NCBI RefSeq assembly: GCF_017744695.1
Contig: NZ_JAGIAS010000011.1
Location: 62,001-126,000 of the forward strand
Direction of reading: 5' to 3'
From: Dyadobacter sp.
GTDB lineage: Bacteria; Bacteroidota; Bacteroidia; Cytophagales; Spirosomataceae
Length of the DNA: 64,000 bases
Shown: piece by piece, positions 26,413 through 63,202 of the stretch
Layout of the letters: each line of letters begins with the position of its first letter
Numbering within the stretch: position 1 is the stretch's first letter
Made by a program: the position numbers and the translations under genes
The notes under the pieces: generated by a model
The model's database searches: none
What the model saw: the letters and a program-made list of their open reading frames with translations, nothing else
What the model was told of the DNA's origin: nothing

Positions 26413-26482
26413 TTTTATTAATTTCGTATTAAGCTACCGTCGGGCAAGCCATCAAACCGGTCGACCAGCGATCCTATCAATC

Positions 26483-36044: not shown

Positions 36045-36284
36045 AATCGATTCAAAGTGTCAGGGAAAAGCGAACGACGCTCATCTGTACCTAACGTCGG
36101 TTGCCTACATGTTCGCGTTGCAAAATCGAATTTATTCCCCCTATTACTAACCCAATGTGCCGCCATTAATGAGCCCGAAAGGTCCCCTCCCCCTCCTGGG
36201 CCCACGTTCTGAAAAAATTCCGATATTTTTTTCGCAACACATTGCATTTTGTACTTTCCTATTTTATTTTTGACACAAATTAAG

Positions 36285-36297
36285 TTAGTGCGTTAAG
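36285..36297 (+). promoter_or_regulatory. Operator candidate TTAGTGCGTTAAG, site 1
   Basis: One of three identical 13-bp elements in the window, 5 bp before the ATG of the MFS transporter. Together with the preceding AAG it has CTTA/TAAG-like symmetry. So close to the start codon, it would block transcription or initiation when occupied. The GntR protein at 52043 is the likely reader. Confidence 0.65.
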
Positions 36298-36302
36298 TTA
36301 TC

Positions 36303-37562
36303 ATGAAGAAAAACTACGTTCGCTGGTGGGTTGTTTTCCTGGTCTTCGTCGCGACCGGCCTGAGCTTTCTCGACAGGCAGGTGTTATCGATCGCCGTGAT
36401 CCGCATTCAGGAGGAATTCGGTTTCAGCGACGTGGAATACGGCTGGGTGAATACCAGTTTCCTGCTCAGTTATGCATTGATGTTCACCGTAGGCGGCTGG
36501 CTTATCGACCGCATCGGCGCGCGAAAAGGGCTGGGCATCGCAGTGGGCGTATGGTCGGTAGCGAATGCATTGCATGGGGTAATGACGAACCTTCCGCAGC
36601 TACTTACCTTCCGTTTTTTCCTCGGTATGGGCGAAGGCGCCTGCTTTCCCGGCGCGGCCAGGACGGTTCATGAATGGTTTGATGAAAAAGAAAGGGCCTT
36701 CGCAAACGGCATCGCCATCGGCGGCTCGGCCATTGGGGCCGTTATCGCCCCGCCGCTCACCATCTGGCTGTCCAACAGCTACGGATGGCGTTCGGGATTT
36801 GTGATACCCGGCGTGGCAGGAGCCATTTGGGTGATCGTATGGCTGCTTTTGCCGTGGAAACGGAAGGATGCGAACACGGAAACAGCCGTCTTCCAGACCC
36901 AGCAAATCTTTAAAATACCCTTTTCAACCATATTAAAACAACGGGAAACCTGGGTATTCGTCCTGATACGGTTTCTCCTCGATCCGGTCATGTATTTCAT
37001 GATGTTCTGGATACCCAAATACCTGAGCGACGTACGCGCCGTACCTTTTGGTCAGATCGGGCGGTTGTTCTGGATACCCTTTCTGTCGCTGGGTATTTCC
37101 AATATCCTCGGCGGCTTCTTCTCCGATCAACTGGCCCGGAAAGAGGTCAGTACCGGTCGCGCGCGGAAGATCGTAATGGGCTGCGCGGCGGCTCTGACAC
37201 TCGCGGTCCCGCTCACGGAATTTACATCGTCGGTGGGTATTGCGGTGGCTTGCATGGCGTTATATATGTTTGCGCATGGCTGCTGGATTACCAATTATAT
37301 CACCGCCATTTCGGACGTTTTCGGGCCGGGGGCGACGTCTACGGTGGTGGGGTTGTCGGGCACGGCAGGTGCATTATCCAGCCTGATCCTGAACCCGATG
37401 ATCGGGAAAATCGTGCAGGAATATTCGTATAAGCCGCTCTGGATCGCTTCAGGCTTGCTGTATCCCGTTGCATTCATCGCATTCATTGTGCTCATACCCA
37501 GGCTGCGGCCACTTTTTGAACGCCCTGCCGCCATCGTCACGCCAGCGGAGGTTACCGACTAG
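36303..37562 (+). CDS. MFS transporter (anion:cation symporter, hexuronate-like)
   Basis: 419 residues with 12 predicted spans. The N terminus WVVFLVFVATGLSFLDRQVL is typical of the ACS family that includes ExuT and glucarate carriers, and the loop DRIGARKGLGIAVGVWS is the MFS A-motif region. Spans continue with LTFRFFLGMGEGACFPGAAR-TVHEWF and, in the second half, YLSDVRAVPFGQIGRLFWIP. It imports a monovalent sugar acid or sugar in the inner membrane. An operator candidate precedes it, and another precedes the isomerase gene 98 bp downstream, so both are likely under the same repressor. Confidence 0.9.
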   Translation: MKKNYVRWWVVFLVFVATGLSFLDRQVLSIAVIRIQEEFGFSDVEYGWVNTSFLLSYALMFTVGGWLIDRIGARKGLGIAVGVWSVANALHGVMTNLPQLLTFRFFLGMGEGACFPGAARTVHEWFDEKERAFANGIAIGGSAIGAVIAPPLTIWLSNSYGWRSGFVIPGVAGAIWVIVWLLLPWKRKDANTETAVFQTQQIFKIPFSTILKQRETWVFVLIRFLLDPVMYFMMFWIPKYLSDVRAVPFGQIGRLFWIPFLSLGISNILGGFFSDQLARKEVSTGRARKIVMGCAAALTLAVPLTEFTSSVGIAVACMALYMFAHGCWITNYITAISDVFGPGATSTVVGLSGTAGALSSLILNPMIGKIVQEYSYKPLWIASGLLYPVAFIAFIVLIPRLRPLFERPAAIVTPAEVTD

Positions 37563-37614
37563 CATTTTCTATTTTTAGTAAAACCCGAACAGGAAAAACT
37601 ATTGCTCAAAGAAC

Positions 37615-37627
37615 TTAGTGCGTTAAG
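37615..37627 (+). promoter_or_regulatory. Operator candidate TTAGTGCGTTAAG, site 2
   Basis: Identical to sites 1 and 3; with the preceding C the sequence reads CTTAGTGCGTTAAG, with CTTA and TAAG as inverted ends. It lies 33 bp before the isomerase gene, which begins the long SusCD operon. Confidence 0.7.
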
Positions 37628-37660
37628 AATTAAACTTTAAAAACAATATTTCACTCACTC

Positions 37661-39157
37661 ATGGGAAATCCATTACCGAACGAAAATCACGCCGTAGAAG
37701 AAGCCATTATCCGGAAACGCCAGCCTACCAAACCGCGCATCGGCGTGTTTGGGGTCGGGTATTTCAAATATTGGGGCCAGTTCGATGGTCTGCTCGACGA
37801 TATGCTGCGTAAACAGGCTGTTTTCATCGAAAAGATCGATCGCCTGGGCGATGTCGAACGCGTCGATTTCGGGTTGATCGATACGGTGCAGAAGGCTTAC
37901 GAGCTCGTTCCGAAGCTGCATGCGGCCAATCTCGACCTGATTTTCTGCGATATGCTCACCTACGCCACTTCCAATACGTTCGGTACCATTATCCGCAACC
38001 TGAACGTGCCCATCGTGCTCGTAGCATTGCAGCCCGACCAGGCGATGGATTACAGCCGCGCCTCCACCTACATGCAGTTGTATAACGACGACATCTGTTC
38101 CCTGCCCGAGTTCGCGGGCGTGGCCGCACGGATGGGCAAGCGCGTGCCGGAAATGATCATCGGTACGCTCCACGACGATCCGCAGGCCGACGCGGAGATT
38201 GAAGAATATTGCCGCATTGCCGCCGTGCTGCACGATTTGCGTACTTCCCGCATCGGTCACATCGGCCACCCCATCGAGGCAATGCTCGATATGCATTCGG
38301 ACTCCACGATGTTTACCGCGCATTTCGGTGCGCACATTGTGCAATGCGAGGCCCACGAGATCGTGACGCAGTACCAGCAAACGCAACGGGCCGATATTGA
38401 AAACATGAAGGAACGTATCCTTGACTTTTTCGACACGCCCGACCCGGTCTCCGACCCTATTTCCGAAAAACTCCGCGATACCGACCTCGAAACCGCCGCC
38501 CGCGTGACGGTAGCACTGGAAAAGTTTGTGGAAGCCAAACAGCTCGACGGCCTCGCCTACTATTACGAAGGTCCCGAAAACAGTGAAACGCGGCTCGTCA
38601 TGTCCAACCTCATCGTCGGCAACTCGCTGCTCACCGGCGCGGGCTTCCCCATGTGCGGGGAGTCGGATTTGAAGACGTGCTTTGCGATGCTGATCATGGA
38701 ACGTTTAGGCATAGGCGGTAGCTTTGCCGAGTTTCATCCGGTGGACTTCAAAGAAGGTTTCGTGCTAGTGGGCCACGATGGGCCGCACAATGTCGCTATT
38801 GCCAATGGGAAACCCGTTTTGCGCAGCCTCACGAAGTACCACGGCAAACCCGGTTTCGGTGCAGGCGTGGAATTCAAAATCAAGGAAGGGCCTATTACCA
38901 TGCTAAGCATCAATTCCACGTTCGATGGCAAATTTAAATTCATTATTGCCGAAGGACAGTCAGTAGAAGGCCCTATTCCACCAACCGGTAATACCAATAC
39001 GCGTGGATTTTTCAAGCCGGATGTGCGCACGTTTTTAAAAAAATGGATGAAAGAAGGGCCCACGCACCACTTCGCGCTCGGCGTAGGGCACCATGCAGCC
39101 ACCATTGCCAAAATAGCCGGTTATCTCGGCCTCGAAGCCGTGGTGATCGACCAGTAG
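37661..39157 (+). CDS. L-fucose/L-arabinose isomerase family protein
   Basis: 498 residues, soluble. The opening KPRIGVFGVGYFKYWGQFDG and later DLIFCDMLTYATSNTFGTII belong to the first Rossmann-like domain; the C-terminal part has SNLIVGNSLLTGAGFPMCGE-SDLKTCFAMLIMERLGIGGS and THHFALGVGHHAATIAKIAG. Metal ligands are expected at the Glu of CGESD, at an Asp/Glu of the middle region and at the His-His near the end. Members interconvert aldoses and ketoses in the cytoplasm; the family also includes sulfoquinovose isomerase, so the substrate is open. No sugar kinase or aldolase is near. It starts the operon that continues to 52005. Confidence 0.85.
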   Translation: MGNPLPNENHAVEEAIIRKRQPTKPRIGVFGVGYFKYWGQFDGLLDDMLRKQAVFIEKIDRLGDVERVDFGLIDTVQKAYELVPKLHAANLDLIFCDMLTYATSNTFGTIIRNLNVPIVLVALQPDQAMDYSRASTYMQLYNDDICSLPEFAGVAARMGKRVPEMIIGTLHDDPQADAEIEEYCRIAAVLHDLRTSRIGHIGHPIEAMLDMHSDSTMFTAHFGAHIVQCEAHEIVTQYQQTQRADIENMKERILDFFDTPDPVSDPISEKLRDTDLETAARVTVALEKFVEAKQLDGLAYYYEGPENSETRLVMSNLIVGNSLLTGAGFPMCGESDLKTCFAMLIMERLGIGGSFAEFHPVDFKEGFVLVGHDGPHNVAIANGKPVLRSLTKYHGKPGFGAGVEFKIKEGPITMLSINSTFDGKFKFIIAEGQSVEGPIPPTGNTNTRGFFKPDVRTFLKKWMKEGPTHHFALGVGHHAATIAKIAGYLGLEAVVIDQ

Positions 39158-39207
39158 GACCTTTTGCATTTCCTGTACCGCTTTAATCAAAGTAAATCCG
39201 AATCTTT

Positions 39208-42200
39208 ATGAAACACTTTTTATGCAAAAAGCTGCCGCCTTATGCGCGGTGGGCTGTGCTGTGTTTGCTCTTTTTGCCCTGCCGCCACCTGCTCGCGCAG
39301 TCGGGCCCGCGGGTGACGGTCACCGGCACGGTCCTTTCCGGGACAGATAACACGCCTCTGATCGGCGCCACCATTGCCGAAAAAGGCACCACCAATGGCA
39401 CCACCACGGATGGCAACGGCCAGTACAAGATCACCCTCGCAAGCACGGGTACGCTGGTGATCAGCTTCATCGGCTACACCGCGGAGGAAGTAAAACCGGA
39501 TAACCGTTCGGTAATCGATGTCACGCTGAAAGCGGATATGCAACAGTTGCAGGACGTGGTCGTGGTGGGTTATGGTACCCAAAAGAAGTCCACACTGACA
39601 GGCTCGGTGGCTTCGGTGAAGTCGGACGAAATCTTAAAAGCGCCTACCTCCAATGCCACCAACAGCCTCACCGGCCGGATGCCGGGGGTATTTGTGGTGC
39701 AGCGGAGCGGTAAACCAGGTGACAATCAGGCCGATATATTCATCCGCGGCCGCGCTACCACCGGCGACAGTTCCCCGCTCATCATCGTGGACGGCGCCGA
39801 GCGGCAGAGTTTCGGAGATATTGACCCGAACGAGATCGAAACCGTGTCGGTACTGAAAGACGCTTCCGCCACGGCGCTTTTCGGGATCAAGGGCGGGAAT
39901 GGCGTTATCCTGGTGACAACCAAAGTGGGCAAGGAAGGCAAGCCGCGTATCAGCTATTCGGGCAACGTGGCTTTGCAGACTTACACCAGTTTGCCCAAAA
40001 CCCTGAATGCATTCAATGCGGCCAGCCTGCTCAACGAAGCCAATGCGAATGTGGGCAAGGCTCCGGCATTCACCGACATCGAGTTGCAGAAGTTCAAAGA
40101 CCATTCCGACCCGTACAAGTACCTGGATTTCAACTGGTTCGACTACATTACCCGCAAATATTATCCGCAGACACAGCATAACCTGAACGTATCGGGCGGC
40201 ACCAAAGTGGCACGGTATTTCGTGTCGGCGGGCTATTTGTTCGAGGATGGTTTTCTCAAAAAATTCGACAATCCCTACGGCTACTCCACCTCACCCAAAT
40301 ACAGCCGCTACAACTTCCGCTCCAACCTGGACCTGACTTTGAGCAAAGACCTGAGCGTGTCGGTAAAGCTCGGCGGCCGTCTCGAAGAGCGTTATGCGCC
40401 CGCCGGCGATCCGTTTTATGCCAATGCGGAAATTGAATACCTGCTGTCGCGTGTGAACGGGATACCGGCATATGCCTACCAGCCCTTTTTGCCCGATGGC
40501 CGTTTCATGGAAAACCCCAATGCGGGCGTAAACCTCACCAACCCGCTCGGCTGGATTTCGCGCCGCGGCTACTACATCCAGCAAAACAATTCCATCGAAA
40601 GCACGCTCGCATTGAATTATGACTTACACAAGCTGCTGAAAGGGCTTTCGTTCCGCACCCAGTATGCCTACGATGCCTACTTTATCGCCACACGCCGCCA
40701 ACAGGGCACTTTTACCTCCTACTACATCAACAAACAGACCGACGCGATCGTGAAGGGTAACGCCTCTTTCAGCGACTCGGATACCCCGCTGGGCGCGGTG
40801 GTAGCTGCTTACGACGGCACCATCGCCTACAACCTGCAATCGAGCCTGAACTATAACAACACCTTCGGTAACCACACCGTGACGGGCCTGGCATTGTTCC
40901 AGCGGCAGGCGCGGCGTGTGGTCGGTGCGCAGCCCGCGTACGCGTCGCAGGGGCTTGTGGCGCGGGTGACTTACAGTTTTATGGACAAGTATTTCGCCGA
41001 GTTCAACGGGGCTTACAATGGTTCGGAAAACTTCGCTTCGGGCAAACGCTACGGCTTTTTCCCGGCGGTGTCGGCGGGATGGACGGTGAGTAAGGAGGAT
41101 TTTATGAAAAATGTTTCCTGGCTGAGCTACCTCAAAATCAGGGGCAGCGCGGGTAAGATCGGCTTTGATAAAATCGGCGGGAACCGCTTTTTGTACCTGG
41201 ACGAATATACCCGCAACTCCACCGTTTACGGCGGGGGCGCCAACCTTGGGTTGACAGTAAAACCCAACACCGCGGCGCAATTCGGATTGCCCACAGCCAT
41301 CAACACCTACCCGGTAATTACGCATTCACGCATTGGCAACCCGAATATTACCTGGGAAACCTCCACGAAGCGTAACATCGGTTTTGAGAGTAGCTTCTTC
41401 AATGATATGTTCTCGCTGAACTTCGATATTTTTAATGAAACCAGAAAAAACATCCTGCTCAACCGGCAATCGGGCCTCACTACTTACGGGGAGGCGTATC
41501 CAAGCCTGAATTATGGCGAGGTGCGCAACCACGGCTACGAGATCGAATTGCGGCATTTGCGGCGGATCGGCGAGATCGGGTACGGCATTACGGCCCAGGC
41601 GAGTTTTGCCAGAAACAAGGTGATCAACCTCGATGAGCCATCGGGCCGTCCGGCTTACCAAAAGGCCGCAGGCTACCAGATCGGCCAGTACCGGGGCTAC
41701 GTGACCGACGGCTTTTACCAGTCGCAGGACGATATCAACAGCTACCTGCCCAACCTGCTCGGCAAGCCCATTCCCGGAGATTTGAAATTCAGGGACATCA
41801 ACGGCGACGGCGTGATTTCCACCGACGACATTACACCCATCGGCTACTCCAACGTACCCGAGTACACTTACAGCGTCGAACCGACATTCAGTTTCAAGGG
41901 CTTCTCGTTTTCGGTGATGTTCCAGGGCGTGGCGCACGTGAGCTCCGACATTCAGTTTGACCAGCGGAACCTGAGCAGCAACCAGATGTACGAAAATATG
42001 CTCGGCCGCTGGACACCCGCTACCGCCCAAACCGCGACCTGGCCCGCTTTGCAGCCGGCAGTAGGCGGTAACTTCATGAGCTATGCGACCAACGATTTTC
42101 TGCTCACCAATGCCCGTTTTCTCAAAATCCGCAATGCACAACTCGCTTATCAGCTGCCTTCCACACTGGTAAAGAAAGTGGGTGTGAAAGGCATCCGCGT

Positions 42201-42345
42201 ATCGCTTTCGGGCCAAAACCTGTACACCTGGACCAAAGTGCTCTACCGCGATCCGGAAAACTTCCAGCGCCGCGCGCCGCAGGGGGCTTACAACGTGTAC
42301 CCTACTTCCCGGCTTTACAACCTGGGCCTCAACATCGAGTTCTGA
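39208..42345 (+). CDS. SusC/RagA family TonB-linked outer membrane protein (first of tandem pair)
   Basis: 1045 residues. After the signal peptide (ARWAVLCLLFLPCRHLLAQ) comes the carboxypeptidase-regulatory-like domain (VTGTVLSGTDNTPLIGATIA), the motif QDVVVVGYGTQKKSTLTGSV, the plug (IIVDGAERQSFGDIDPNEIE and SATALFGIKGGNGVILVTTK) and a barrel that ends in SRLYNLGLNIEF. There is no STN domain. The gene follows the isomerase by 50 bp and SusD by only 15 bp, so they share a transcript. It imports the glycan of this locus. Confidence 0.95.
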   Translation: MKHFLCKKLPPYARWAVLCLLFLPCRHLLAQSGPRVTVTGTVLSGTDNTPLIGATIAEKGTTNGTTTDGNGQYKITLASTGTLVISFIGYTAEEVKPDNRSVIDVTLKADMQQLQDVVVVGYGTQKKSTLTGSVASVKSDEILKAPTSNATNSLTGRMPGVFVVQRSGKPGDNQADIFIRGRATTGDSSPLIIVDGAERQSFGDIDPNEIETVSVLKDASATALFGIKGGNGVILVTTKVGKEGKPRISYSGNVALQTYTSLPKTLNAFNAASLLNEANANVGKAPAFTDIELQKFKDHSDPYKYLDFNWFDYITRKYYPQTQHNLNVSGGTKVARYFVSAGYLFEDGFLKKFDNPYGYSTSPKYSRYNFRSNLDLTLSKDLSVSVKLGGRLEERYAPAGDPFYANAEIEYLLSRVNGIPAYAYQPFLPDGRFMENPNAGVNLTNPLGWISRRGYYIQQNNSIESTLALNYDLHKLLKGLSFRTQYAYDAYFIATRRQQGTFTSYYINKQTDAIVKGNASFSDSDTPLGAVVAAYDGTIAYNLQSSLNYNNTFGNHTVTGLALFQRQARRVVGAQPAYASQGLVARVTYSFMDKYFAEFNGAYNGSENFASGKRYGFFPAVSAGWTVSKEDFMKNVSWLSYLKIRGSAGKIGFDKIGGNRFLYLDEYTRNSTVYGGGANLGLTVKPNTAAQFGLPTAINTYPVITHSRIGNPNITWETSTKRNIGFESSFFNDMFSLNFDIFNETRKNILLNRQSGLTTYGEAYPSLNYGEVRNHGYEIELRHLRRIGEIGYGITAQASFARNKVINLDEPSGRPAYQKAAGYQIGQYRGYVTDGFYQSQDDINSYLPNLLGKPIPGDLKFRDINGDGVISTDDITPIGYSNVPEYTYSVEPTFSFKGFSFSVMFQGVAHVSSDIQFDQRNLSSNQMYENMLGRWTPATAQTATWPALQPAVGGNFMSYATNDFLLTNARFLKIRNAQLAYQLPSTLVKKVGVKGIRVSLSGQNLYTWTKVLYRDPENFQRRAPQGAYNVYPTSRLYNLGLNIEF

Positions 42346-42360
42346 ACCATCTTTTTTACG

Positions 42361-44013
42361 ATGATGAAAAAACATTTCCTTTCCCTCTTTGTCGCTTCGC
42401 TGGCCGTGCTGTCGGGCTGTGACGACAAGTTTCTGAACGTAGCGCCCGATGTAGCGCTCGATGAAACGAAAGTATTCGGTGACCCGGTGATGGCCGCGCA
42501 ATACGCCGACAATGCGTACAGCTTCCTCCCCGACGATTACCTGCGTTTCAATGAAGGCAACGGCGTGGCCCAGGCTTCCGACGAGGCGGTCGGCATTGAC
42601 GTTACCAACCCGATGCTTTATACTCTTTCCAAAGGCCTCTACCACGATCACACCGCCTTTACCACATTGGCGATCAACGACATCGGCGGACAATACGACC
42701 GTCTGTATGCCGGTATCCGCATTGTGAATAAAATGCTCTCCAAAATGGACGAGGTGAAATGGACCGCCGACCAGAACCCGCAGCGCATCAAAGGCGAAAT
42801 GTACTACCTGCGTGCATTCATGTATTTCGAACTCATCAAACGCTTCGGCGGCGTGGTGCTCATCGACAAGGCCTATGCGGCCACGGACGATATCGACCTT
42901 CCCCGCAACAGTTACGACGAATGTGTAAAATTCATCCAGGCTGACATCGCGCAGGCTGTGTCCCTCCTGCCCACCGACCACGACGAGGCGAATTACGGTC
43001 GCCCGACGATTGGGGCTGCCCGGGCGCTCAAAAGCCGGCTGCTCCTGTATGCGGCCAGCCCATTACATAATAGCTCCAATGATCCGGCCAAATGGCAAGC
43101 CGCTGCCGATGCGGCCAAAGAGGTAATGGATATGAATAAATACAAGCTGCACCCGCGCTACGAAGAATTGCTTTCACCCGCCGGGAACGGCACCACCGAC
43201 GAGTACATTCTCATCAAGATCAAAAAACCACGAACCTGGGATTGGGCCATTCTCTCGGTAGTATCGCCGGGTTCCGGCGGGCGCATTGGGACCTATAATC
43301 CTACCCAAAACCACGTGGATCTGTATGAAATGAAGAACGGGCTGCCCATTACCGATCCACAGTCGGGTTATGACCCGGCGAATCCTTATGCCAACCGCGA
43401 CCCGCGTTTTTATGCCAACATTCTCTACAACGACGCGCCCTGGCAGGACCGGAAAATGCAAATGTGGGACGGCGGTGCCGATTACAGTTCGAGCAGCTCG
43501 TCGTATACAGCTACCCGGTACTACTCCCGTAAAATGTGGCCCGAAGTCTACAAAACGCCCGGCACACAAACGGCTTTCCTCAACTTCATCTTCTTCCGCT
43601 ACGGCGAGATTTTACTCAACTATGCCGAGGCGAAAAACGAAGCCTCCGGCCCGGATGCGAGCGTGTACAGCGCCATTAACCAGCTCCGCAAGCGCGCCGG
43701 CATGCCCGATTTGCCCACCGGTTTGAGTAAAGACCAGATGCGCGCCCGGATCTACAACGAACGGGCCGTGGAACTGGCTTTCGAGGATAACCGCTGGTAC
43801 GACATCATGCGGTGGAAAAAGGGCAAGGAACTGGTGGCGCAGAAGATGTATGGAATGAACGTAGTGAAGAACGCCGACGGCACATTTACCTACACCAAAG
43901 TGGAGCTGCCGACTTCATTCCAGCGGGTGTATGAAGACCATATGCACCTCTACCCCATCCCGCGCAACGAAGTGCAGAAGAGCAAAAAGCTGGAACAAAA
44001 CCCAGGCTGGTAG
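42361..44013 (+). CDS. SusD/RagB family lipoprotein (first of tandem pair)
   Basis: 550 residues; starts at a double ATG. The lipobox is FVASLAVLSGCDDKFLNV, with D-D-K after Cys. Family features: IRIVNKMLSKMDEVKWTADQ, RIKGEMYYLRAFMYFELIKR-FGGVVLIDKA, ALKSRLLLYAASPLHN, FFRYGEILLNYAEAKNEASG and the C-terminal RIYNERAVELAFEDNRWYDI-MRWKKG. It is the surface glycan-binding partner of the SusC upstream. The next SusC begins 24 bp downstream. Confidence 0.95.
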   Translation: MMKKHFLSLFVASLAVLSGCDDKFLNVAPDVALDETKVFGDPVMAAQYADNAYSFLPDDYLRFNEGNGVAQASDEAVGIDVTNPMLYTLSKGLYHDHTAFTTLAINDIGGQYDRLYAGIRIVNKMLSKMDEVKWTADQNPQRIKGEMYYLRAFMYFELIKRFGGVVLIDKAYAATDDIDLPRNSYDECVKFIQADIAQAVSLLPTDHDEANYGRPTIGAARALKSRLLLYAASPLHNSSNDPAKWQAAADAAKEVMDMNKYKLHPRYEELLSPAGNGTTDEYILIKIKKPRTWDWAILSVVSPGSGGRIGTYNPTQNHVDLYEMKNGLPITDPQSGYDPANPYANRDPRFYANILYNDAPWQDRKMQMWDGGADYSSSSSSYTATRYYSRKMWPEVYKTPGTQTAFLNFIFFRYGEILLNYAEAKNEASGPDASVYSAINQLRKRAGMPDLPTGLSKDQMRARIYNERAVELAFEDNRWYDIMRWKKGKELVAQKMYGMNVVKNADGTFTYTKVELPTSFQRVYEDHMHLYPIPRNEVQKSKKLEQNPGW

Positions 44014-44037
44014 TCCCACCTCAACCTTACGATATCT

Positions 44038-47000
44038 ATGAAAATAACCAATATGATCCGCGGGCTGATGTTGACGCTCGCGGTGCTGTCGGGCCGGGCA
44101 ATGGCCCAGGATGCTGTGCCGGCGGCTGTTTCGGGAACGGTGGAAGACGCCGGCCGCATGCCCGTGGCAGGTGTGAATGTGAGCGTCCAGGAAGGGAAAA
44201 TGCAAACCATTTCAGACGAGAATGGCGCGTTTTCCATTAAAGTGGCGAAGGGGGAAGTGCTGGTTTTTGAAAAAAATGGCTACCTCACCTTTTACCAGAA
44301 TATCACCGAAACGAAACATCCCCTGAAAATCCAGTTGCCGAAAGCCCTGCCATATGCCGGTATGGACGACGATGTGTACATTCCCTTTGGGGTGCGTAAA
44401 AACCGCGAGATCAACGGGTCGGTATCGACGCTGAAAGCCAATGCATTGCCGCAGATCCCGGCCAGCTCGCTCACCAACCTCTTTGCAGGCCAATTACCGG
44501 GGTTGAATGTTTGGCAAACCGGCACCTTGCCCGGACGCGACGAAACGACTATCGTGATCCGCAACCGCGCATCCTTCGCAGGCGCAAACGTGCCGCTCGT
44601 GCTCGTGGACGGGGTCGCGCGCGATTTTTCGGACATGGACCTGAGCGAGATCGAATCCATTACCACATTGAAAGACGCGGCTTCGCTGGCCTGGTACGGC
44701 AACCGCGCGGCAAACGGCGTGCTGCTCATCACGACACGCCGGGGCAATGCGGACAAAACGCGGTTTACCTACGATATGCAGATGGGCGCCCAGCAACCGA
44801 CCAGACTCATGAAGCCGCTCGATTCCTACAATTTTGCCAACCTGTACAATCAGGCCCTGAAAAACGACGGCTTCGCGCCACTTTACACCCAGGAGCAGCT
44901 CGACGGCTACCGCAGCGGCGCCGACGCGTACAGATATCCCAATAACAATTTCGTGAACGAGTTCCTGAAATCCAGCGCATTCGTGCAGCGGCACGTGCTC
45001 ACAGCCTCCGGCGGCTCCAGAGCGGTGCGCTACTTCACCAACCTCAGCTTTTTCGACCAGCGCGGGCTGTACGACCATGCCGATGCCCCCATGTTCAATT
45101 CCAATGTGGGCTACCGCCGTTACAACCTGCGTACCAACCTCGACATTCAGGTGACACCCATGCTCAGCGTGCAGCTGGATATGGGCGGGCGCATCGAAGA
45201 CCGTCGTGAACCGGGCGGCACCAGTGCTGCATTCCTGAGCACCATCTTCACCACGCCGGCCAATGCATTTCCTCTGCTGAATGAAAATGGCTCCTACGGC
45301 GGCAGCAACCTCTTCCGTGCCAACCCGCTCGCGCAGTTGCGGGCGCAAGGCAACCGCAGCGAGGTGACCCGCGTGCTGCTCGGCACATTGAATGCGACCC
45401 ACAAGCTGGATTTCTGGCTGCCGGGACTGAGCGCGAATGTGTTCTATACTTTCGACATTTCGGGCCGGTACGTGAGCGGTCGCAGCCAGGAATACGAGGT
45501 GTACGAACGGGCGGCCAATGGCGCACTCACGCGCTTCGGCACATCCACCCCGCTGGGCTACCTCGCCGCCACTTTCGCCGACAACATCCGCACCAACGAG
45601 CTGTGGACCGGCTTCGACTACGACCGTGCATTCGGCAGGCACCAGCTCAAAGCGACAGCGCGCTACCAGCAGGCCGTGACCTTCAATCCTGCCCGTCTGC
45701 AAGACAAGCGCCAGGGCTTTTCGGGCCGTGTTTCCTACGGCTTCAACAACCGCTACTATGCCGACCTGGTAGCCAGCTACACAGGCGCGGACAACTACAT
45801 GCCGGGCAAGCAATTCGGTTTCTTTCCGGCGGTGGCTGCGGGCTGGGTGATTTCCGAAGAGTCGTTTCTAAGGAGTGTAAAAGCCATTGATTACCTCAAA
45901 TTGCGGGCCTCCTACGGCAAGGCCGGCAACAATGCGACGGGCGAAACGGGCAAGTTTCCCTATGCCTACCTGTTCAGTCCGGCAAATGGCAGCTATGCGT
46001 TTGGCACCAGTTTCGCGGCGCAGGCCGGGGCTTCGGAAAACACCTTGCCGAACCCGGATATTACCTGGGAATCGGCTTACAAAACGGATGTCGGTTTGGA
46101 CGCAAAGCTGTTTAAAAACACCGTCACGTTGTATGCCAATTATTTCAATGAGCTGAGAAAGAACATCCTGACAGCACCTATTAACCCGTCGATCCTTGGC
46201 CTGGCGACTTACCGCATTAACGACGGCGAAACGCGTCTCAGAGGCTTTGAAGGTTCCATTGATTTTACCAGAACATTCGGACAGCTGACATTATCATTAG
46301 GAGGCAATTATACTTTTGCCAAAAACAAAATCCTGCGCATTAACGAATCGGCGGGCTTGCTCGATTACCAGAAACAAGCTGGCCACAACATCGCCGGCGT
46401 GACCGATTATGGCAAGCTGATGCTCATTTCGGACGGTATTTTCCAGTCGCAAGCCGAGATCGACCAAAGCCCCGCACAGCGTTTCGCAGGCAAGCTCCAA
46501 CCCGGTGACATCAAATACAAGGACGTGAACGGCGATAAGGTGATCGACAATTACGACCGCGTGATGACGGATTTCAACGACACGCCGAATGCCTACTACG
46601 GCTTCCACATCGGCGCGCGCTACCGGGCATTGGACATCTCGGTGGTAGGCCAGGGCGTGACCGGCCGCACAATCCAGATCCGTTCGCTGGTCATGGCAGG
46701 GTCGAACAACACGGGGTATATCAACCAGTTCAGCCCGCAGGCGTGGACGCAGGACAATCCTAATGCGCCATATCCCAGATTAGGCATTTCGGACCGGGGC
46801 AACAACACGGCCGATTCGGATTTCTGGCTGCGATCGGGCGATTACCTGCGCGTCAAGTCGGTGGAGCTGGGGTATACCATCCCGCAAAGTATGGCCGACA
46901 AGCTGCGGATCAGGAGTTTGAGGGTATATGCCAATGGTTTTAACCTATTTAATTTGAATAAAACCCACCTGGACATCGATCCCGAAATACCTTTCGCAGG

Positions 47001-47058
47001 CTATAACGCCTATCCCTACCTGCGCACGGTTACGGCGGGCATTAACCTCAAATTCTGA
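44038..47058 (+). CDS. SusC/RagA family outer membrane protein, divergent (second of tandem pair)
   Basis: 1006 residues. The signal peptide (MIRGLMLTLAVLSGRAMAQ) and a carboxypeptidase-regulatory-like domain (VSGTVEDAGRMPVAGVNVSV) are normal, but the usual VVVVGYG segment is replaced by DDDVYIPFGVRKNREINGSV. The plug reads LVLVDGVARDFSDMDLSEIE and SLAWYGNRAANGVLLITTRR. It ends RTVTAGINLKF. The changes suggest a second, more distant transporter lineage in the same operon, perhaps for another part of the substrate. The SusD partner is 21 bp downstream. Confidence 0.93.
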   Translation: MKITNMIRGLMLTLAVLSGRAMAQDAVPAAVSGTVEDAGRMPVAGVNVSVQEGKMQTISDENGAFSIKVAKGEVLVFEKNGYLTFYQNITETKHPLKIQLPKALPYAGMDDDVYIPFGVRKNREINGSVSTLKANALPQIPASSLTNLFAGQLPGLNVWQTGTLPGRDETTIVIRNRASFAGANVPLVLVDGVARDFSDMDLSEIESITTLKDAASLAWYGNRAANGVLLITTRRGNADKTRFTYDMQMGAQQPTRLMKPLDSYNFANLYNQALKNDGFAPLYTQEQLDGYRSGADAYRYPNNNFVNEFLKSSAFVQRHVLTASGGSRAVRYFTNLSFFDQRGLYDHADAPMFNSNVGYRRYNLRTNLDIQVTPMLSVQLDMGGRIEDRREPGGTSAAFLSTIFTTPANAFPLLNENGSYGGSNLFRANPLAQLRAQGNRSEVTRVLLGTLNATHKLDFWLPGLSANVFYTFDISGRYVSGRSQEYEVYERAANGALTRFGTSTPLGYLAATFADNIRTNELWTGFDYDRAFGRHQLKATARYQQAVTFNPARLQDKRQGFSGRVSYGFNNRYYADLVASYTGADNYMPGKQFGFFPAVAAGWVISEESFLRSVKAIDYLKLRASYGKAGNNATGETGKFPYAYLFSPANGSYAFGTSFAAQAGASENTLPNPDITWESAYKTDVGLDAKLFKNTVTLYANYFNELRKNILTAPINPSILGLATYRINDGETRLRGFEGSIDFTRTFGQLTLSLGGNYTFAKNKILRINESAGLLDYQKQAGHNIAGVTDYGKLMLISDGIFQSQAEIDQSPAQRFAGKLQPGDIKYKDVNGDKVIDNYDRVMTDFNDTPNAYYGFHIGARYRALDISVVGQGVTGRTIQIRSLVMAGSNNTGYINQFSPQAWTQDNPNAPYPRLGISDRGNNTADSDFWLRSGDYLRVKSVELGYTIPQSMADKLRIRSLRVYANGFNLFNLNKTHLDIDPEIPFAGYNAYPYLRTVTAGINLKF

Positions 47059-47079
47059 CCATTCATCTTTTTGATAATT

Positions 47080-48702
47080 ATGAAAAGGTACCAAGTCATT
47101 ATCCCATTGATCCTCGCGGTGCTCGTGAGCGCGTGCAAGGAATCGCGGTTCCTGGAATTTCCCTACTACGACGGTCCGGTGACCGAAGAGCAGTTCTGGA
47201 ACCTGAACGCCTCCGCCCGCGGCCAGCTCAACCGCGGCTATAACTTCCTGCAAGAAGGTTATAACCGGTATGGCGGCGCCATGCTCGCGGCCGGGTCCGA
47301 CGAAGCCGTGAATTCGAACCTCAATTCGGACATCAATGTATTTAACAACGGAACGTGGAGCTCGCTGCGGACACTGGACGACAGCTACGCTATCAACTAC
47401 AACGGCCTCAGGCAAGTGAACCTCTTCCTCGAAAATGCCCGCCGCGCCAATATCATCCCGCTCACCGACATTCCCAGGCTCCGCGCAGAGGCCTTTTTCC
47501 TCCGCGCATTCTTCCATTTCGAGCTCTGGAAACGCTACGGCGGTGTGATCATCGCCGATCACGTTTTCAGCCAAACCGACAATCTCGACCTGCCCCGCAA
47601 CACGCCGGAGGAAACTTTGGCACAAATCCTGAAAGACTGCGATTCGGCCGCTGTGACACTACCGCTCTCGCCTGTACAATACGGCGCGGGCGACAAAGGG
47701 CGCGCCACCAAGGCCGCCGCGATGGCATTGAAATCGAGGGCATTGCTTTACGCCGCCAGCCCGCTCAACAATGCGAACGGGGATATTACCCTTTGGCAAA
47801 AAGCCGCCGCCGCTTCCAAAGAGCTGATCGACACCAAAGCCCATAGCCTGCTGGCCAACTATGCCGACATTTTCAATTTCTCCACCGCCGCCTACAATGC
47901 GGAGGTGATCTTCGCCACGGCTGCCAACCTGCGCAACGACATTGAAACCAATAATGCGCCGATCAGCTACAATGGCGCGTTGGGTCTTACCAATCCTACG
48001 CAGGAACTGGTGGATGCCTATGAAATGAAAAACGGCCTGCCGATCACCGATCCGCTGTCGGGATACAACCCGGCGGACCCCTACAAAGACCGCGACCCGC
48101 GCTTCGCATTGTCGGTGATTTACAATGGCTCGAATTTCAAAGGTACGCCCGTGAATACCGCGACTGGCGGCAAGGACGGCCTGGGTGTGAGCGTGAATGC
48201 GACCCAAACGGGCTACTACATGCGTAAATTCCTCAGCGAAGCTGCCAGCTGGAACCAGACCACCAATGCAACCGTGCGCCGGCCATGGGTGATTTTCAGG
48301 TATGCGGAAATCCTGCTCAACTACGCCGAAGCGCAGAACGAAGCTGCCGGCCCCGACGCCAGCGTGTACGACGCGGTGAACCAGGTACGCCAGCGCGCAG
48401 GCATGCCGGTGCTCCCGCAAGGGCTTTCGAAAGACCAGATGCGCACCCGGATCCGCAACGAACGGCGGGTGGAGCTGGCCTTCGAGGAACACCGTTTTTT
48501 TGATGTAAGAAGATGGAAAACGGGGGAAAAAGACTTCGCTGCGCCGGTATCGGGGATGCGGATATCCATGAATGGCACCAACACGGTCTACGAGCGCTTC
48601 ATAGTGGCCCGGCGGGTGTTCAGTGAAAGGATGTACCGCTACCCGATACCGCAAGGCGAGATCAATAACACTACGAAACTGGTACAGAACCCGGGATATT
48701 GA
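47080..48702 (+). CDS. SusD/RagB family lipoprotein (second of tandem pair)
   Basis: 540 residues from the ATG at 47080 (a TTG lies 9 bp upstream). The lipobox is LILAVLVSACKESRFLEF, with K-E-S after Cys. SusD features: GQLNRGYNFLQEGYNRYGGA, RLRAEAFFLRAFFHFELWKR-YGGVIIAD, ALKSRALLYAASPLNN, WVIFRYAEILLNYAEAQNEA and RIRNERRVELAFEEHRFFDV. The two SusD proteins of the locus share the end motifs, but their middle parts differ. It pairs with the divergent SusC upstream. Confidence 0.94.
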   Translation: MKRYQVIIPLILAVLVSACKESRFLEFPYYDGPVTEEQFWNLNASARGQLNRGYNFLQEGYNRYGGAMLAAGSDEAVNSNLNSDINVFNNGTWSSLRTLDDSYAINYNGLRQVNLFLENARRANIIPLTDIPRLRAEAFFLRAFFHFELWKRYGGVIIADHVFSQTDNLDLPRNTPEETLAQILKDCDSAAVTLPLSPVQYGAGDKGRATKAAAMALKSRALLYAASPLNNANGDITLWQKAAAASKELIDTKAHSLLANYADIFNFSTAAYNAEVIFATAANLRNDIETNNAPISYNGALGLTNPTQELVDAYEMKNGLPITDPLSGYNPADPYKDRDPRFALSVIYNGSNFKGTPVNTATGGKDGLGVSVNATQTGYYMRKFLSEAASWNQTTNATVRRPWVIFRYAEILLNYAEAQNEAAGPDASVYDAVNQVRQRAGMPVLPQGLSKDQMRTRIRNERRVELAFEEHRFFDVRRWKTGEKDFAAPVSGMRISMNGTNTVYERFIVARRVFSERMYRYPIPQGEINNTTKLVQNPGY

Positions 48703-48753
48703 GTTCAAAAATTGCTTTTAGTCACAATTGGCTTGCCGACCTGACCTTTTACC

Positions 48754-51270
48754 ATGAAAATAAAACTCGCATTAACTTGCCTGAGCCTGCTCACCGGCCT
48801 TTCGCTTTCCGCTCAAAACAAGCTGGGAACGCTGAAGGGGAAGAATTTCAACAACATCACCCTGGAAGTTTCGCTGAAACCATTTAAAAAGAATGACAAG
48901 GTCTACATCCGCGAGGTGGCCAGGGAAATGTTCGTGCAATGGTCGTCGATGCTGCGGCATGCGGACACGGTATCGGTGATGCTCTGGACGAGCGATGGCT
49001 CCGAAATCCTGGATTACAAGGGCACGCCCGCGCAGCCGCTGGAATGGGCCAGGTACATGGGCAACCCCAACACCGAACACGCGGTAAACTCCGGGCCGAA
49101 GGAATTGTCCATTCACGAGCGGGCATATCTTTACCTCGATAACCCACCCGCATTCACCTATGGCGACCTGAAATTCATCGTACAAACATTGAAGGAAGAA
49201 GGCCGCAAAGCAACCGGTAAGCCAGTGCTCATCGGCGAAACTTTCGATCCGGGGCCGGAGTTCGCTCGGTCGGATTTTAAGTACAAAAAACACCGGGAAA
49301 TCCTGGGCGGGAGCGCCATGGGGCATAATACGATGGTGAGCTGCTATTCGGTACTCAATGCCGACAGCGAGGCCTATGCGGGTTTTCCCAAAGGCATTCC
49401 GGCCAATACGCCGTTCGGAACGTTCCTGGGCAGGCAAAGCAAGCATTTTTTGAAGGATATGGGGTTTGATTTCCTGTGGCTGAGCAACGGGTTTGGGTAC
49501 GGGATGGAAGGCTGGTCGTCTACCGGCGCGATTTTCGACGGCAAGGGTTTCGACCAGGCCAAACTGGCGGATACGAAGGACAAGATCGCCGGTTTCTGGA
49601 AGTACTTCCGGGCCGAAAACCCCGATGTGCAGATCCAGACCCGCGGTACCAACCTCTCCGCCGGCACCGACCTCGCCCGCGACGGCGTGAACCTGCAAGC
49701 CATTTACCGCGACAAAAACATGCTGCCGCCGCCCAACTCGCCATGGGCCGCATTGGACGGCGATTTCGGGCTGGAAATGGTGGGATACATGTCCAGAATG
49801 GCCGAGCTGCCCGACGAACGCTTCCTTTTCCGCTTCTACACCCACGACCCGTGGTGGCTCAACAGCCCCTGGCTCGACCGCTATGGTCGCGAGGCGCACG
49901 ATATTTACCTTCCGCTCTCCGTCAGCCGCATTAATGCCAAAGGCGAGGTAAGAATCCCGTCGCACCTGAGCTTCCTCAGCATCGACGATACCCACGGCGA
50001 CATGCCCACGCAGGTACCCGACGAGGTTACCCCGCACATCCTGAAAGCCCGCTATGACGCCCCTACCGCGCCGGGGCCGTTGGTGTGGCTGTACCCGTTC
50101 GAAGAATACCACCGGTGGGCATTCGCCTACCCGGACCGCCTCCCCGAGATTTACTACGGCGATTGGCTCATCCGGCAGGCGATCAACAATGGTTTCCCGC
50201 TGAACACCGTGGTTTCTACCGGTTCATTTCAAAGCGTAATCAAAAGCAAACCCGGCTTTTTCAAAGAATCCATCCTCGTAACCGTGGTGCCTGACGCGGA
50301 TTCCCCGATGGAAAAGGCGCTCATTGGTTTTGTTAAAAATGGGGGTAAATTGATGGTGTACGGCCCTGCTGACCACGCGGGAAAGGCTTTTCGGGAATTA
50401 CTGAACCTGAAAAACGAGGTACCGTTGGAAGGAGAATTCAAAGTATCGGGACAGTACGAGGGCGACAGGCTGGCAACGGCTTACCCGGATGTGGTGCGGC
50501 ATGAAGCATTGTTTTCAGGTGGTGGTATGGCCACGAACCTTGCCAATCCCAATGACCCCGATACCCGCCTCCTCGCACGAATGTCGCAGGCGGGCCAGTC
50601 GCGCGACGTAGCGTGGGTACGCGCGGGCGACGACTGGCATGGCGGAAAAGTGGTCTACATCCGCGGCACCAATTCCAGCAAGTTCAATGGCGGCAAGCTG
50701 CTTAACCCGGACGATCCTTCGAAATTCTTCACCGGCCCGCTGCTGATGCGATACGCGTTGGCCGCATTCGATATGCATTGTGTGATTGAAAAGGAAAACG
50801 CCGCTGTGAAAAATCCGGTACTTACCATTGCGAGGAGCAACAATGCATTCGTTTTCTCGGGTTACCATCCCAACAGCACCATCACCGACCGGTTCAAATT
50901 CCCGCAAGGCGCGCCTTTGCTGCTCGGACTGGAAACGAAACTGGACGCCGGGCATTCGGTGTACAATCTGCCGACTTCCTGGAACCGTGAATGCCGCATT
51001 TTCGTGACGCAAAACAATGGTATTGTATCCTATAAAGAGCTGCATTCCGGGGTGAAGGATATCGACAAACGCTTCCAGATAAGCGGGTTGCAGAACGCTA
51101 CCGTACGCGTCTACGCACCGGAGCACATTAGTTTGGAGCGATTCGAGGCTTATATCAATGCGTCCTATCCCTGGAAAACCGGCAGGATCAAGGTCGGCGA
51201 AGGCGACCCGAAGTTCGGCAGGCATTTCGTGGCCGAGCATGTGACAGGTACGCTCACCGTCGCGTGGTAA
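48754..51270 (+). CDS. Large secreted protein of unknown family, glycosidase-like layout
   Basis: 838 residues with a signal peptide (MKIKLALTCLSLLTGLSLSA). I cannot assign a family. About residues 30-440 read like a TIM barrel with many aromatic and acidic residues (GFDFLWLSNGFGYGMEGWSS, VQIQTRGTNLSAGTDLARDG, DGDFGLEMVGYMSRMAELP and FRFYTHDPWWLNSPWLDRYG). About 480-560 look like a class-I amidotransferase-like Rossmann domain (SILVTVVPDADSPMEKALIG, GGKLMVYGPADHAGKAFREL), as in GH42-type enzymes, and the end (650-838) is beta-rich (NPVLTIARSNNAFVFSGYHP). Its place behind two SusCD pairs and before an esterase suggests that it is the main glycan-cleaving enzyme of the locus. Function is inference. 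Confidence 0.8.
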   Translation: MKIKLALTCLSLLTGLSLSAQNKLGTLKGKNFNNITLEVSLKPFKKNDKVYIREVAREMFVQWSSMLRHADTVSVMLWTSDGSEILDYKGTPAQPLEWARYMGNPNTEHAVNSGPKELSIHERAYLYLDNPPAFTYGDLKFIVQTLKEEGRKATGKPVLIGETFDPGPEFARSDFKYKKHREILGGSAMGHNTMVSCYSVLNADSEAYAGFPKGIPANTPFGTFLGRQSKHFLKDMGFDFLWLSNGFGYGMEGWSSTGAIFDGKGFDQAKLADTKDKIAGFWKYFRAENPDVQIQTRGTNLSAGTDLARDGVNLQAIYRDKNMLPPPNSPWAALDGDFGLEMVGYMSRMAELPDERFLFRFYTHDPWWLNSPWLDRYGREAHDIYLPLSVSRINAKGEVRIPSHLSFLSIDDTHGDMPTQVPDEVTPHILKARYDAPTAPGPLVWLYPFEEYHRWAFAYPDRLPEIYYGDWLIRQAINNGFPLNTVVSTGSFQSVIKSKPGFFKESILVTVVPDADSPMEKALIGFVKNGGKLMVYGPADHAGKAFRELLNLKNEVPLEGEFKVSGQYEGDRLATAYPDVVRHEALFSGGGMATNLANPNDPDTRLLARMSQAGQSRDVAWVRAGDDWHGGKVVYIRGTNSSKFNGGKLLNPDDPSKFFTGPLLMRYALAAFDMHCVIEKENAAVKNPVLTIARSNNAFVFSGYHPNSTITDRFKFPQGAPLLLGLETKLDAGHSVYNLPTSWNRECRIFVTQNNGIVSYKELHSGVKDIDKRFQISGLQNATVRVYAPEHISLERFEAYINASYPWKTGRIKVGEGDPKFGRHFVAEHVTGTLTVAW

Positions 51271-51297
51271 TGCATTTATTTTGAAATAATACTGACT

Positions 51298-52005
51298 ATG
51301 AAATACCTGAAACTTTACGGCATCGCACTGCTTGCAATTTTTACGGGCATCAAAACCCGTGCGCAAGTCGCAGACAGCAGCCAGTACCTGCAAAAATTAA
51401 AACAGGAATTACAAACCGAATGGCCTAAAAGCCGGACGATCAACGTCGTTTTTCATGGCCATTCCGTGCCGGCGGGTTATTGGGAAAACCACGAGGTGCA
51501 TACCCTCGAATCGTATCCCAATCTATTCCTGAAAGCATTGAAAGCGAAATATTCCTATGCCGTTGTGAATGTGATCGTTACGGCAATCGGCGGCGAGAAT
51601 GCGATCAGCGGACAGGCGCGTTTCGAAAAAGACGTGCTGACGCACCGGCCCGATATCCTTTTTATCGATTATGCATTGAATGACCGGTTTTCACCGCTCG
51701 ACAAGGTGAAAAGTTCCTGGGCGCAAATGATTGAAGCGGCGCAGGCCAAAGGCATTCCCGTAATCCTGCTCACCCCGTCCCCCGACCAGCGCATCAACAT
51801 CGCCGACCCTGCCAACCCGCTCGATCCTTATGTGGTGCAGATCCGTGAACTGGCCAAACAGTACAAAACCGGCCTGGCCGATCCGTACGTGGTATTTCAG
51901 CAATTGGTGAAGGATGGCAAACTCAAAGAAGTGATGGCCTCGGTGAACCACCCGAACGAAACGGGGCATATGGTGATCGTGAACCGCATTCTTCCCTATT
52001 TCTGA
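51298..52005 (+). CDS. SGNH/GDSL-type esterase, secreted
   Basis: 235 residues with a signal peptide (KLYGIALLAIFTGIKTRAQ). SGNH blocks are visible: block I NVVFHGHSVPAGYWENHE with Ser56 in GHS in place of GDS, block II Gly in TAIGGENAI, block III in IDYALNDRF (Asn) and block V in VNHPNETGH (His). The Asp usually three residues before that His is replaced by Ser. It should remove acetyl or other acyl groups from the glycan in the periplasm. It is 27 bp after the unknown 838-residue protein and ends the plus-strand operon. Confidence 0.85.
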   Translation: MKYLKLYGIALLAIFTGIKTRAQVADSSQYLQKLKQELQTEWPKSRTINVVFHGHSVPAGYWENHEVHTLESYPNLFLKALKAKYSYAVVNVIVTAIGGENAISGQARFEKDVLTHRPDILFIDYALNDRFSPLDKVKSSWAQMIEAAQAKGIPVILLTPSPDQRINIADPANPLDPYVVQIRELAKQYKTGLADPYVVFQQLVKDGKLKEVMASVNHPNETGHMVIVNRILPYF

Positions 52006-52014
52006 ATGCATACC

Positions 52015-52044
52015 AAAGGCCGAAATAGTCCCGGAACGGCCTTT
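52015..52044. terminator. Bidirectional rho-independent terminator
   Basis: AAAGGCCG and CGGCCTTT form an 8-bp stem around a 14-nt loop, with adjoining A and T residues on both strands. It ends the long operon from 37661 and the GntR gene, whose stop codon (52043-52045) is part of the right arm. Confidence 0.8.
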
Positions 52045-52792
52045 AAGCGTCCTGATAGTCTGGATTCGCGCTGATGGCGAACTTGTATTTATCGCCCCGG
52101 TAAAACGACCGTTCTATCTCCACCACCTGGCCGTCTTTGCAGATCACCGCGCTGTCGAGGATGAACATGGGCGTGGCATTGGCAAGCTCGAAATTATCCA
52201 TTTCCGATCCGGGCTGGACGATTTCGGTGCTTAAAGTCTGCTTCACTTCGTCAATGCGAAGGTTATAGGTAGTTTCATAAATTTTGAAATAGGAAATTTC
52301 CGTGGGCATGCGGTTGATCTTCGGGCACAGGGCGAGGGAAATGTACTTGATCTCGTCCTTGATGATCTCGTTGTCGGCGTAGCGCAGCTGGTGCACTTTG
52401 AGCACGGGGCCGCCGATGATGAAATGCTTCCCGCCTATTTCCGACGAAATGCCGTCGTCGAGTACCGTTTTTTCCAGCACCACATTATGCGGCTCGAAAC
52501 CCTCGGCGATGAGGCTTTCGTGAAACCCGCGCCGGGTGGCATTAATGGAGCCCAATGTACGGATAAGGTGATGGCCTACCGTACGGTTCAAGACGAATGT
52601 CCCCTTTCCCTTGATGCGCCGGGCCCAGCCCTGGTTTTCGATTTCCAGCAGGCTTTTGCGCGCCGTCGTATTGCTGATCCGGTAAGTTTTGATCAAATCA
52701 TTCTCCGACGGAATCTTGTCTCCGGGCTGTAATTCCCCGGTTTTGATCCTTTCGATAATTTCCTCACTGATACTGACAAACTTCGGTTTCAT
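52043..52792 (-). CDS. GntR family transcriptional regulator, HutC/UTRA type
   Basis: 249 residues from the ATG at 52792; the frame can reach 52894, but the added residues are not GntR-like. A winged helix fills the first 70 residues (SISEEIIERIKTGELQPGDK-IPSENDLIKTYRISNTTARK and RRIKGKGTFVL). A UTRA ligand domain (90-240) has FELANATPMFILDSAVICKD and VVEIERSFYRGDKYKF. UTRA domains bind small sugars or sugar phosphates and release the operator. It is divergent to the tannase gene, and one of three identical operator candidates lies in between, so self-regulation and control of the locus are likely. Confidence 0.93.
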   Translation of the reverse strand: MKPKFVSISEEIIERIKTGELQPGDKIPSENDLIKTYRISNTTARKSLLEIENQGWARRIKGKGTFVLNRTVGHHLIRTLGSINATRRGFHESLIAEGFEPHNVVLEKTVLDDGISSEIGGKHFIIGGPVLKVHQLRYADNEIIKDEIKYISLALCPKINRMPTEISYFKIYETTYNLRIDEVKQTLSTEIVQPGSEMDNFELANATPMFILDSAVICKDGQVVEIERSFYRGDKYKFAISANPDYQDA

Positions 52793-52918
52793 TGGTGCAC
52801 TGGACAATACGTAAAAGGGCAAATTTACCAGAAGCAAATTCCTGTGCAATAGGAAAACCGCATATTCCGGCCGATGCCCGCATCGGGAGCTCAATTACGG
52901 CATTTTCGGCGAGTATGG

Positions 52919-52931
52919 TTAGTGCGTTAAG
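52919..52931 (+). promoter_or_regulatory. Operator candidate TTAGTGCGTTAAG, site 3
   Basis: Identical to sites 1 and 2, in the same orientation, 50 bp before the tannase gene and 127 bp before the GntR start. It could control both divergent genes. Confidence 0.7.
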
Positions 52932-54613: not shown

Positions 54614-54708
54614 CCGAAATCCGGCATAAGAGAGTAATATTAATAAGGCAGCGCATACAAAATTACTATTGCGCCGACCGAACGCTATAACCCATGGACA
54701 ATATCAGC

Positions 54709-63174: not shown

Positions 63175-63185
63175 ATCATCTGATG
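63165..63185. promoter_or_regulatory. Operator-like 21-bp repeat at the MFS start, copy 2
   Basis: Identical to the element at 63853-63873 over 21 bp, and it includes ATCATATCATCTGATG. It overlaps the start codons of the exporter at 63172-63174 and 63169-63171. The palindrome core TCATC-T-GATGA is intact up to its last base. Confidence 0.7.
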
Positions 63186-63202
63186 TTTGATGGTAAAAAA
63201 AT

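Follow-up and report, generated by a model that had tools for sequence, protein, structure and literature searches.

A 64,000-nucleotide stretch of Dyadobacter sp. (the window; contig NZ_JAGIAS010000011.1 of assembly GCF_017744695.1, positions 62,001 to 126,000) contains a sugar-utilization locus in which the 13-mer TTAGTGCGTTAAG occurs three times, each time before a gene of the locus. The repeated element is very probably the operator of the adjacent GntR/HutC regulator (gene gntR), which would repress the local sugar genes until a ligand relieves repression. In the proposed mechanism, a GntR dimer would bind a 14-bp dyad of two CTTARYG half-sites (RY = GT or AC). The dyad would lie just downstream of the transcription start, where bound dimer would block transcription of the major facilitator superfamily (MFS) transporter gene and of the isomerase-SusCD-esterase operon, both predicted targets; in this lineage the tannase gene would be a third. 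Repression would be relieved when the UTRA domain of the regulator binds a small molecule derived from imported glycan, perhaps a product of rhamnose-containing oligosaccharides.

The repeated element and its distribution

The exact copies of TTAGTGCGTTAAG are at 36285-36297, 37615-37627, and 52919-52931, all on the + strand and between genes, and gntR adjoins the last of them; positions and gene order agree with the original prediction. That prediction had seen no further copy in the intergenic regions that were read and had proposed an exact and one-mismatch scan of the whole genome. The scan of 7,826,826 bp found these three exact copies only, every one within this locus and intergenic, and about 0.2 exact copies are expected per genome from base composition. 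One additional place has one mismatch, and there are 50 places with up to two mismatches (including the three exact copies). Flanks of the three sites are dissimilar, and likeness is confined to the element itself. Chance repetition had been called very unlikely. TTAGTGCGTTAAG is indeed the only 13-mer with at least three copies in the window, but the statement was too strong: when the window was imitated 60 times with an order-4 Markov model, 32% of the imitations had some 13-mer at least three times. The element is considered firm because it is unique in the genome and conserved, and because of where it lies; the number of repeats does not settle the matter by itself. The window also has places with two mismatches (35241, 46208, and 60562), which were considered as further sites and taken as chance: allowing up to three mismatches gave 15 places compared to 12.9 expected, and 37 of 100 shuffles reached this number. 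A reversed-pattern control had 100 and 118 matches in the same genome compared to 23 and 27 for the motif; this excess is not read as depletion, because the control is unmatched for stop codons (the motif holds TAG and TAA).

Co-occurrence of the 13-mer and gntR was determined in two samples of genomes. Among 149 genomes around the window, GntR orthologues (E ≤ 1e-20) were found in 30 and the exact 13-mer in 33. All 30 GntR-positive genomes have the 13-mer, compared to three of 119 GntR-negative genomes (G012, G031, and G100; G031 is 81% complete), which gives a Fisher p value of 2e-28 with kinship ignored. Five genomes with isomerase relatives of only about 40% identity (G005, G008, G020, G052, and G133) have neither gntR nor the 13-mer. 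The 33 genomes contain 57 copies, including 52 in the cluster, one before the tannase gene of G017 (176 kb from gntR), and four elsewhere (G012, G031, G100, and contig 19 of G010), every one of which is within a reading frame. There are 19 matches to the reversed pattern in this sample.

The second sample consisted of 198 genomes around Pedobacter G534, with GntR in four and the 13-mer in 13. Again all GntR-positive genomes (4/4) have the 13-mer, compared to nine of the 194 others (p = 1e-5, kinship ignored). Eight of the 20 copies are in or near clusters; the other 12 include ten within frames, one that overlaps a frame end (G554, contig 8), and one that is intergenic (G564). Scattered single copies are considered background because the reversed pattern gives 21 matches in these genomes. 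Over both samples, 14 of 16 copies outside clusters are within reading frames, and 53 of 60 copies inside clusters are outside frames under the same mechanical frame rule. The remaining seven cluster copies fall within the MFS frame only where the mechanical rule extends it upstream of the start aligned with that of the window.

The regulator was found at 13 Dyadobacter loci, two Pedobacter loci, and one locus each of Parapedobacter and Chitinophagaceae, as well as in two other Bacteroidota assemblies; of these two, L079 is a truncated match and was excluded. D. fermentans and D. beijingensis are among the Dyadobacter species with the locus. The genomes behind loci L074 to L078 have 2, 0, 2, 2, and 1 distinct sites for the symmetric degenerate 14-mer, respectively, and the L075 genome, with no such site, has a one-mismatch site close to gntR. 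In a phylum sample of 395 genomes, which was scanned for the 14-mer and not for gntR, it was found in only two, the genome of the window and G443. The exact 14-mer in G443, a distant genome of the phylum, is intergenic (position 8179 of L144) with no recognized cluster gene nearby, and it may be due to chance or belong to another regulon.

Conservation extends over 14 bp, an imperfect dyad of the form [C/G]TTAGTGCGTTAAG, in which C or G precedes the 13-mer. Neither the dyad nor its departure from the HutC consensus (discussed below) was part of the original prediction. Each of the 29 other GntR-positive relatives has a site before the MFS gene with no more than two mismatches to the 14-mer. 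The isomerase gene also has a site in every one of these relatives: 21 sites have no more than one mismatch, seven are of the form CTTAGTGCACTAA[C/G], and one (G070) is reversed and has two mismatches. In these seven isomerase sites and in CTTAACGCGTTAAG from a Bacteroidales genome, two neighboring bases of one arm are changed to match the other arm, and the inner 12 bp of the exchanged-half sites are a perfect palindrome. Because arm exchange restores the palindrome, CTTAGTG and CTTAACG are probably interchangeable half-sites, as expected for a dimer.

Site orientation is mostly constant; reversed sites are those of the G070 isomerase gene and of SusC in G554 and G581. The ATG is between 3 and about 60 bp from the site. 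In other genera, four loci have a site directly upstream of gntR (L137 and L140, and L077 and L078, where it is shared with the MFS gene). The two Pedobacter loci have no site before the MFS or isomerase gene, and both of their sites flank an extracytoplasmic function (ECF)-sigma-like gene behind SusD (positions 5947 and 6629 in L186, from G534); the Pedobacter regulon may be wired through this sigma factor. The Bacteroidales genome has two sites, of which one is in a region of its own close to the end of a contig; this region includes a GH106 gene but no clear target.

Promoters of this phylum are described as having TAnnTTTG at -7 and TTTG near -33 (PMC7366714). MFS sites were scored in the window, 29 relatives, and Parapedobacter (L077 is outside the peptide filter). 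At 31 of 31 sites, TAnnTTTG is 10 or 11 bp before the operator, and TTG is 20 or 21 bp before this box; shuffled flanks have a TAnnTTTG box in 1%. The putative operator is just behind the probable transcription start, as predicted from the promoter boxes, and therefore its placement before the MFS gene fits repression.

Distribution of the tannase site is narrower. Tannase orthologues (E ≤ 1e-180) were found in 13 of the 149 genomes, and five of these have the exact 13-mer before the gene (G000, G010, G034, G002, and G017); all five are GntR-positive. In G017 the site is kept though the gene is far from gntR. The site is absent in three of three GntR-negative genomes with a tannase gene, including G042 (tannase 84% identical). 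The MFS and isomerase sites are old, and the tannase site is a lineage-specific addition. The regulon as originally proposed, in which all three sites answer to GntR, draws support from genome-wide uniqueness and from co-occurrence of the 13-mer with gntR, with the qualification that its tannase member belongs to some lineages only.

The regulator and alternative explanations

The 249-aa regulator has an N-terminal GntR winged helix-turn-helix domain (PF00392, 58.7 bits, cut-off 27) and a C-terminal UTRA effector domain (PF07702, 55.4 bits, cut-off 23.8). Its nearest solved relatives are DasR and NagR, and its structural model, with a predicted local distance difference test (pLDDT) score of 78.9, matches DasR, NagR (YvoA), and PhnF; the other four models have pLDDT 52-58. 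Against named NCBIfam groups (LSA1692, TreR TIGR02404, HutC TIGR02018, PhnF, and PhnR), none of 22 matches was over the cut-off, and the best NCBIfam match was NF041547 (88.3 bits, cut-off 275).

Contacts between NagR and its operator provide a reference for the DNA-reading residues. In NagR, Arg38 reads G at -5, Arg48 reads G at -4, and Gly69 touches the pair at -7 (PMC4333415). In the alignment, Arg38 corresponds to Asn31 of the regulator, Arg48 corresponds to Asn41, and Gly69 is retained as Gly. Asn41 is present in 34 of 34 rows covering the position, and Asn31 in 33 of 34. NagR, FadR, and AraR read G with an Arg of the recognition helix, which is common at this position but not defining, and the regulator has Asn instead. 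The putative operator has T at -5, A at -4, and C or G at -7. At the first position, Arg is reported to go with G/C and Asn weakly with A/T, without significance in HutC (PMC4494728). An alignment was possible for 15 of the 17 GntR-type domains encoded by the genome. This regulator is the only one with Asn at the two places; the second place is never Asn in the other aligned domains, and the sole other UTRA protein of the genome keeps Arg there. These patterns suggest that the residue changes are linked to the operator bases.

Several observations weigh against assigning the element to this regulator. Co-occurrence is not specific to gntR: the isomerase gene (at least 79% identity) and gntR are confined to exactly the same 30 of 149 genomes, and because this linkage is perfect, the test cannot distinguish gntR from other cluster genes. 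The Fisher values disregard kinship. Five GntR-positive genomes (G027, G033, G021, G018, and G009) have no site before the tannase gene, with best matches 3-6 mismatches from the 14-mer. Both half-sites of CTTAGTGCGTTAAG have A at -4 and R at -3 and so depart from the usual HutC form, GT-N4-AC; this comparison depends on pairing the element with this regulator, and GT-N4-AC is described as usual rather than defining, with FarR, NagQ, and SdhR as exceptions (PMC4494728, section 11). General autoregulation was considered and rejected, because a site is lacking at most gntR genes, and it therefore does not back the pairing of regulator and site. Binding and effects on expression are both predicted from sequence.

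Some of these points would be explained if the element were the operator of another regulator (LacI or AraC type, or encoded elsewhere) and gntR were a fellow traveler. The dyad is unlike the HutC consensus (PMC4494728), gntR and the isomerase gene co-occur perfectly, and an AraC-type gene is directly behind one site in G554 and G581. However, the AraC-type neighbor of the MFS gene in the window has only 26-28% identity matches in four compared loci; it was rejected as the regulator because it is not conserved in the clusters of relatives, where not every reading frame is annotated. Altered DNA-reading residues of GntR accompany the unusual operator, and the four loci with a site directly upstream of gntR also argue for the adjacent regulator, which leaves a different regulator improbable. 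Function of the element in RNA, as a leader bound by a protein or small RNA, would suit its place in a probable 5' leader and its mostly uniform orientation to the gene, but it is very improbable given that reversed sites exist, both half-site exchanges retain the DNA dyad, and the distance to the ATG varies. Frequent triple 13-mers in the Markov imitations would allow chance repetition, and recent duplication of one promoter could also leave copies; the chance of either is close to negligible, because the flanks of the three sites differ and the sites are unique in the genome and conserved in other genera and families. Repression by GntR through the dyad is thus the favored explanation.

Gene cluster and likely signal

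The putative operators and the genes around them are listed in Table 1. The 838-aa protein is kept at 63-94% identity in the clusters of 13 relatives and had zero matches in Pfam, NCBIfam, and PDB sequences; it is possible that it represents a new enzyme family. Its AlphaFold model (mean pLDDT 52.7) was too poor for structure search and was not used. The haem-protein and deacetylase genes possibly belong to the tannase operon and would then be co-transcribed with it.

Table 1. Predicted promoter elements, operators, and genes of the locus (window coordinates)
Feature	Position	Strand	Remarks
TTG, putative -33 element of MFS promoter	36242..36244	+	20 bp before -7 box
TATTTTTG, putative -7 box (TAnnTTTG) of MFS promoter	36265..36272	+	10-11 bp before operator
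Operator 1 (putative), GTTAGTGCGTTAAG	36284..36297	+	5 bp before MFS ATG
MFS transporter	36303..37562	+	nearest D-galactonate transporter family, score under its cut-off
Operator 2 (putative), CTTAGTGCGTTAAG	37614..37627	+	33 bp before isomerase ATG
Sugar isomerase-like protein, arabinose/fucose isomerase superfamily	37661..39157	+	first gene, probable operon
Two SusC/SusD-like pairs	39208..42345, 42361..44013, 44038..47058, 47071..48702	+	gaps 15-50 bp; label from original prediction and sequence, no family scan
838-aa secreted-type protein, conserved in clusters	48754..51270	+	family scans
GDSL-type esterase	51298..52005	+	family scan
gntR, GntR/HutC regulator (GntR DNA-binding domain and UTRA domain)	52043..52792	-	ATG 52790-52792
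Operator 3 (putative), GTTAGTGCGTTAAG	52918..52931	+	between divergent gntR and tannase gene, 50 bp before tannase ATG
Tannase/feruloyl esterase family protein	52982..54613	+	family scan
PVC-type haem protein; polysaccharide deacetylase	54694..57735; 57770..59002	+	gaps 80 and 34 bp; haem protein has DUF7133, HEAT repeats, and cytochrome c domain

Two other regions of the window encode regulator-like proteins. Two similar large proteins, which by eye resemble sigma-54-dependent regulators, flank two small genes (26363-28666, + strand, and 30796-32883, - strand). A second GntR regulator, which is FadR/NanR-like and keeps Arg at the recognition position, is beside another transporter-like gene (61963-63877, - strand).

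Clusters of relatives provide some indication of the signal. Among 29 relatives, 13 have GH106 rhamnosidase-like genes in the cluster stretches that were fetched (14 loci, as one genome contributes two), and Pfam confirmed the five rhamnosidases that were scanned (L134, L122, and L137). In a Pedobacter locus the rhamnosidase is of a different type, with Bac_rhamnosid domains. In G554, a site (position 9539 of L181) is between an AraC-type gene and a divergent rhamnose-type operon. This operon encodes a sodium symporter, a GH130-type protein, and a RhaD-type aldolase/dehydrogenase (over cut-off). It also encodes a relative of L-rhamnose isomerase (496 bits, cut-off 647) and two further proteins that likewise score under cut-off, a sugar kinase and a relative of lactate dehydrogenase. 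Frame lengths in G581 are equal to those in G554, and its site is at position 10817 of L183. In these two genomes, a second regulator (AraC) and rhamnose catabolism may be under GntR control. A rhamnose- or rhamnoside-derived inducer is therefore offered as a supported guess. Two findings speak against it: there is no rhamnosidase among the ten window-cluster proteins that were family-scanned, and the isomerase is nearest to L-arabinose isomerase.

Comparison with known systems

The kind of system described here is known, and its operator form and reading residues appear unusual. In a literature search the 13-mer was not found, and among the matches listed none was recognized as describing this regulon. 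Only one of 389 HutC regulators in PMC4494728 is from Bacteroidetes, and the regulator and putative operator offer a pair for a phylum scarcely sampled for the GntR/HutC family. We would give about even chances to a broader proposal, in which a Bacteroidota branch of GntR/HutC proteins with two Arg-to-Asn changes reads a new operator, CTTARYG-CRYTAAG, with hardly any change between Dyadobacter and its family on the one side and Pedobacter, Parapedobacter, and a Bacteroidales genome on the other. This branch would repress single polysaccharide-utilization clusters for an undescribed rhamnoside pathway that includes an arabinose/fucose-superfamily isomerase and the orphan 838-residue enzyme. The two Arg-to-Asn changes accompany loss of G at the matching operator positions, which makes the protein-DNA code of GntR regulators testable. 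Placing the transporter, isomerase, and orphan enzyme (and tannase in some lineages) under one signal would also narrow the search for the substrate.

FucR (BT1272) and ManR (BT2103) of Bacteroides thetaiotaomicron, also GntR-family members from this phylum, regulate the use of fucose and mannose, and they are likened to this system by description only (PMC3878776). The rhamnose regulators RhaR and RhaS possibly respond to a related signal, but they are from different protein families (AraC, LacI, and DeoR types; PMC3870299); "GntR" does not occur in that comparative rhamnose study. Among HutC proteins, FarR, NagQ, and SdhR likewise have sites that deviate from the consensus (PMC4494728, section 11). 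Compared by motif, they have direct repeats (TGTATTAWTT and TGGTATT) and TCTTATGTCTTATATAAGACATAAGA, which differ from the dyad. In architecture the regulator resembles two GntR/HutC proteins that control amino-sugar use, NagR (YvoA) from Bacillus subtilis and Streptomyces DasR: the two domains and the fold are the same, and these systems also have short dyad operators grouped locally at genes for uptake and breakdown. Sugar phosphates relieve repression by NagR (PMC4333415). NagR differs from the Dyadobacter regulator in reading G at -5 and -4 with two Arg residues, where the latter has Asn at both positions and its putative operator has T and A.

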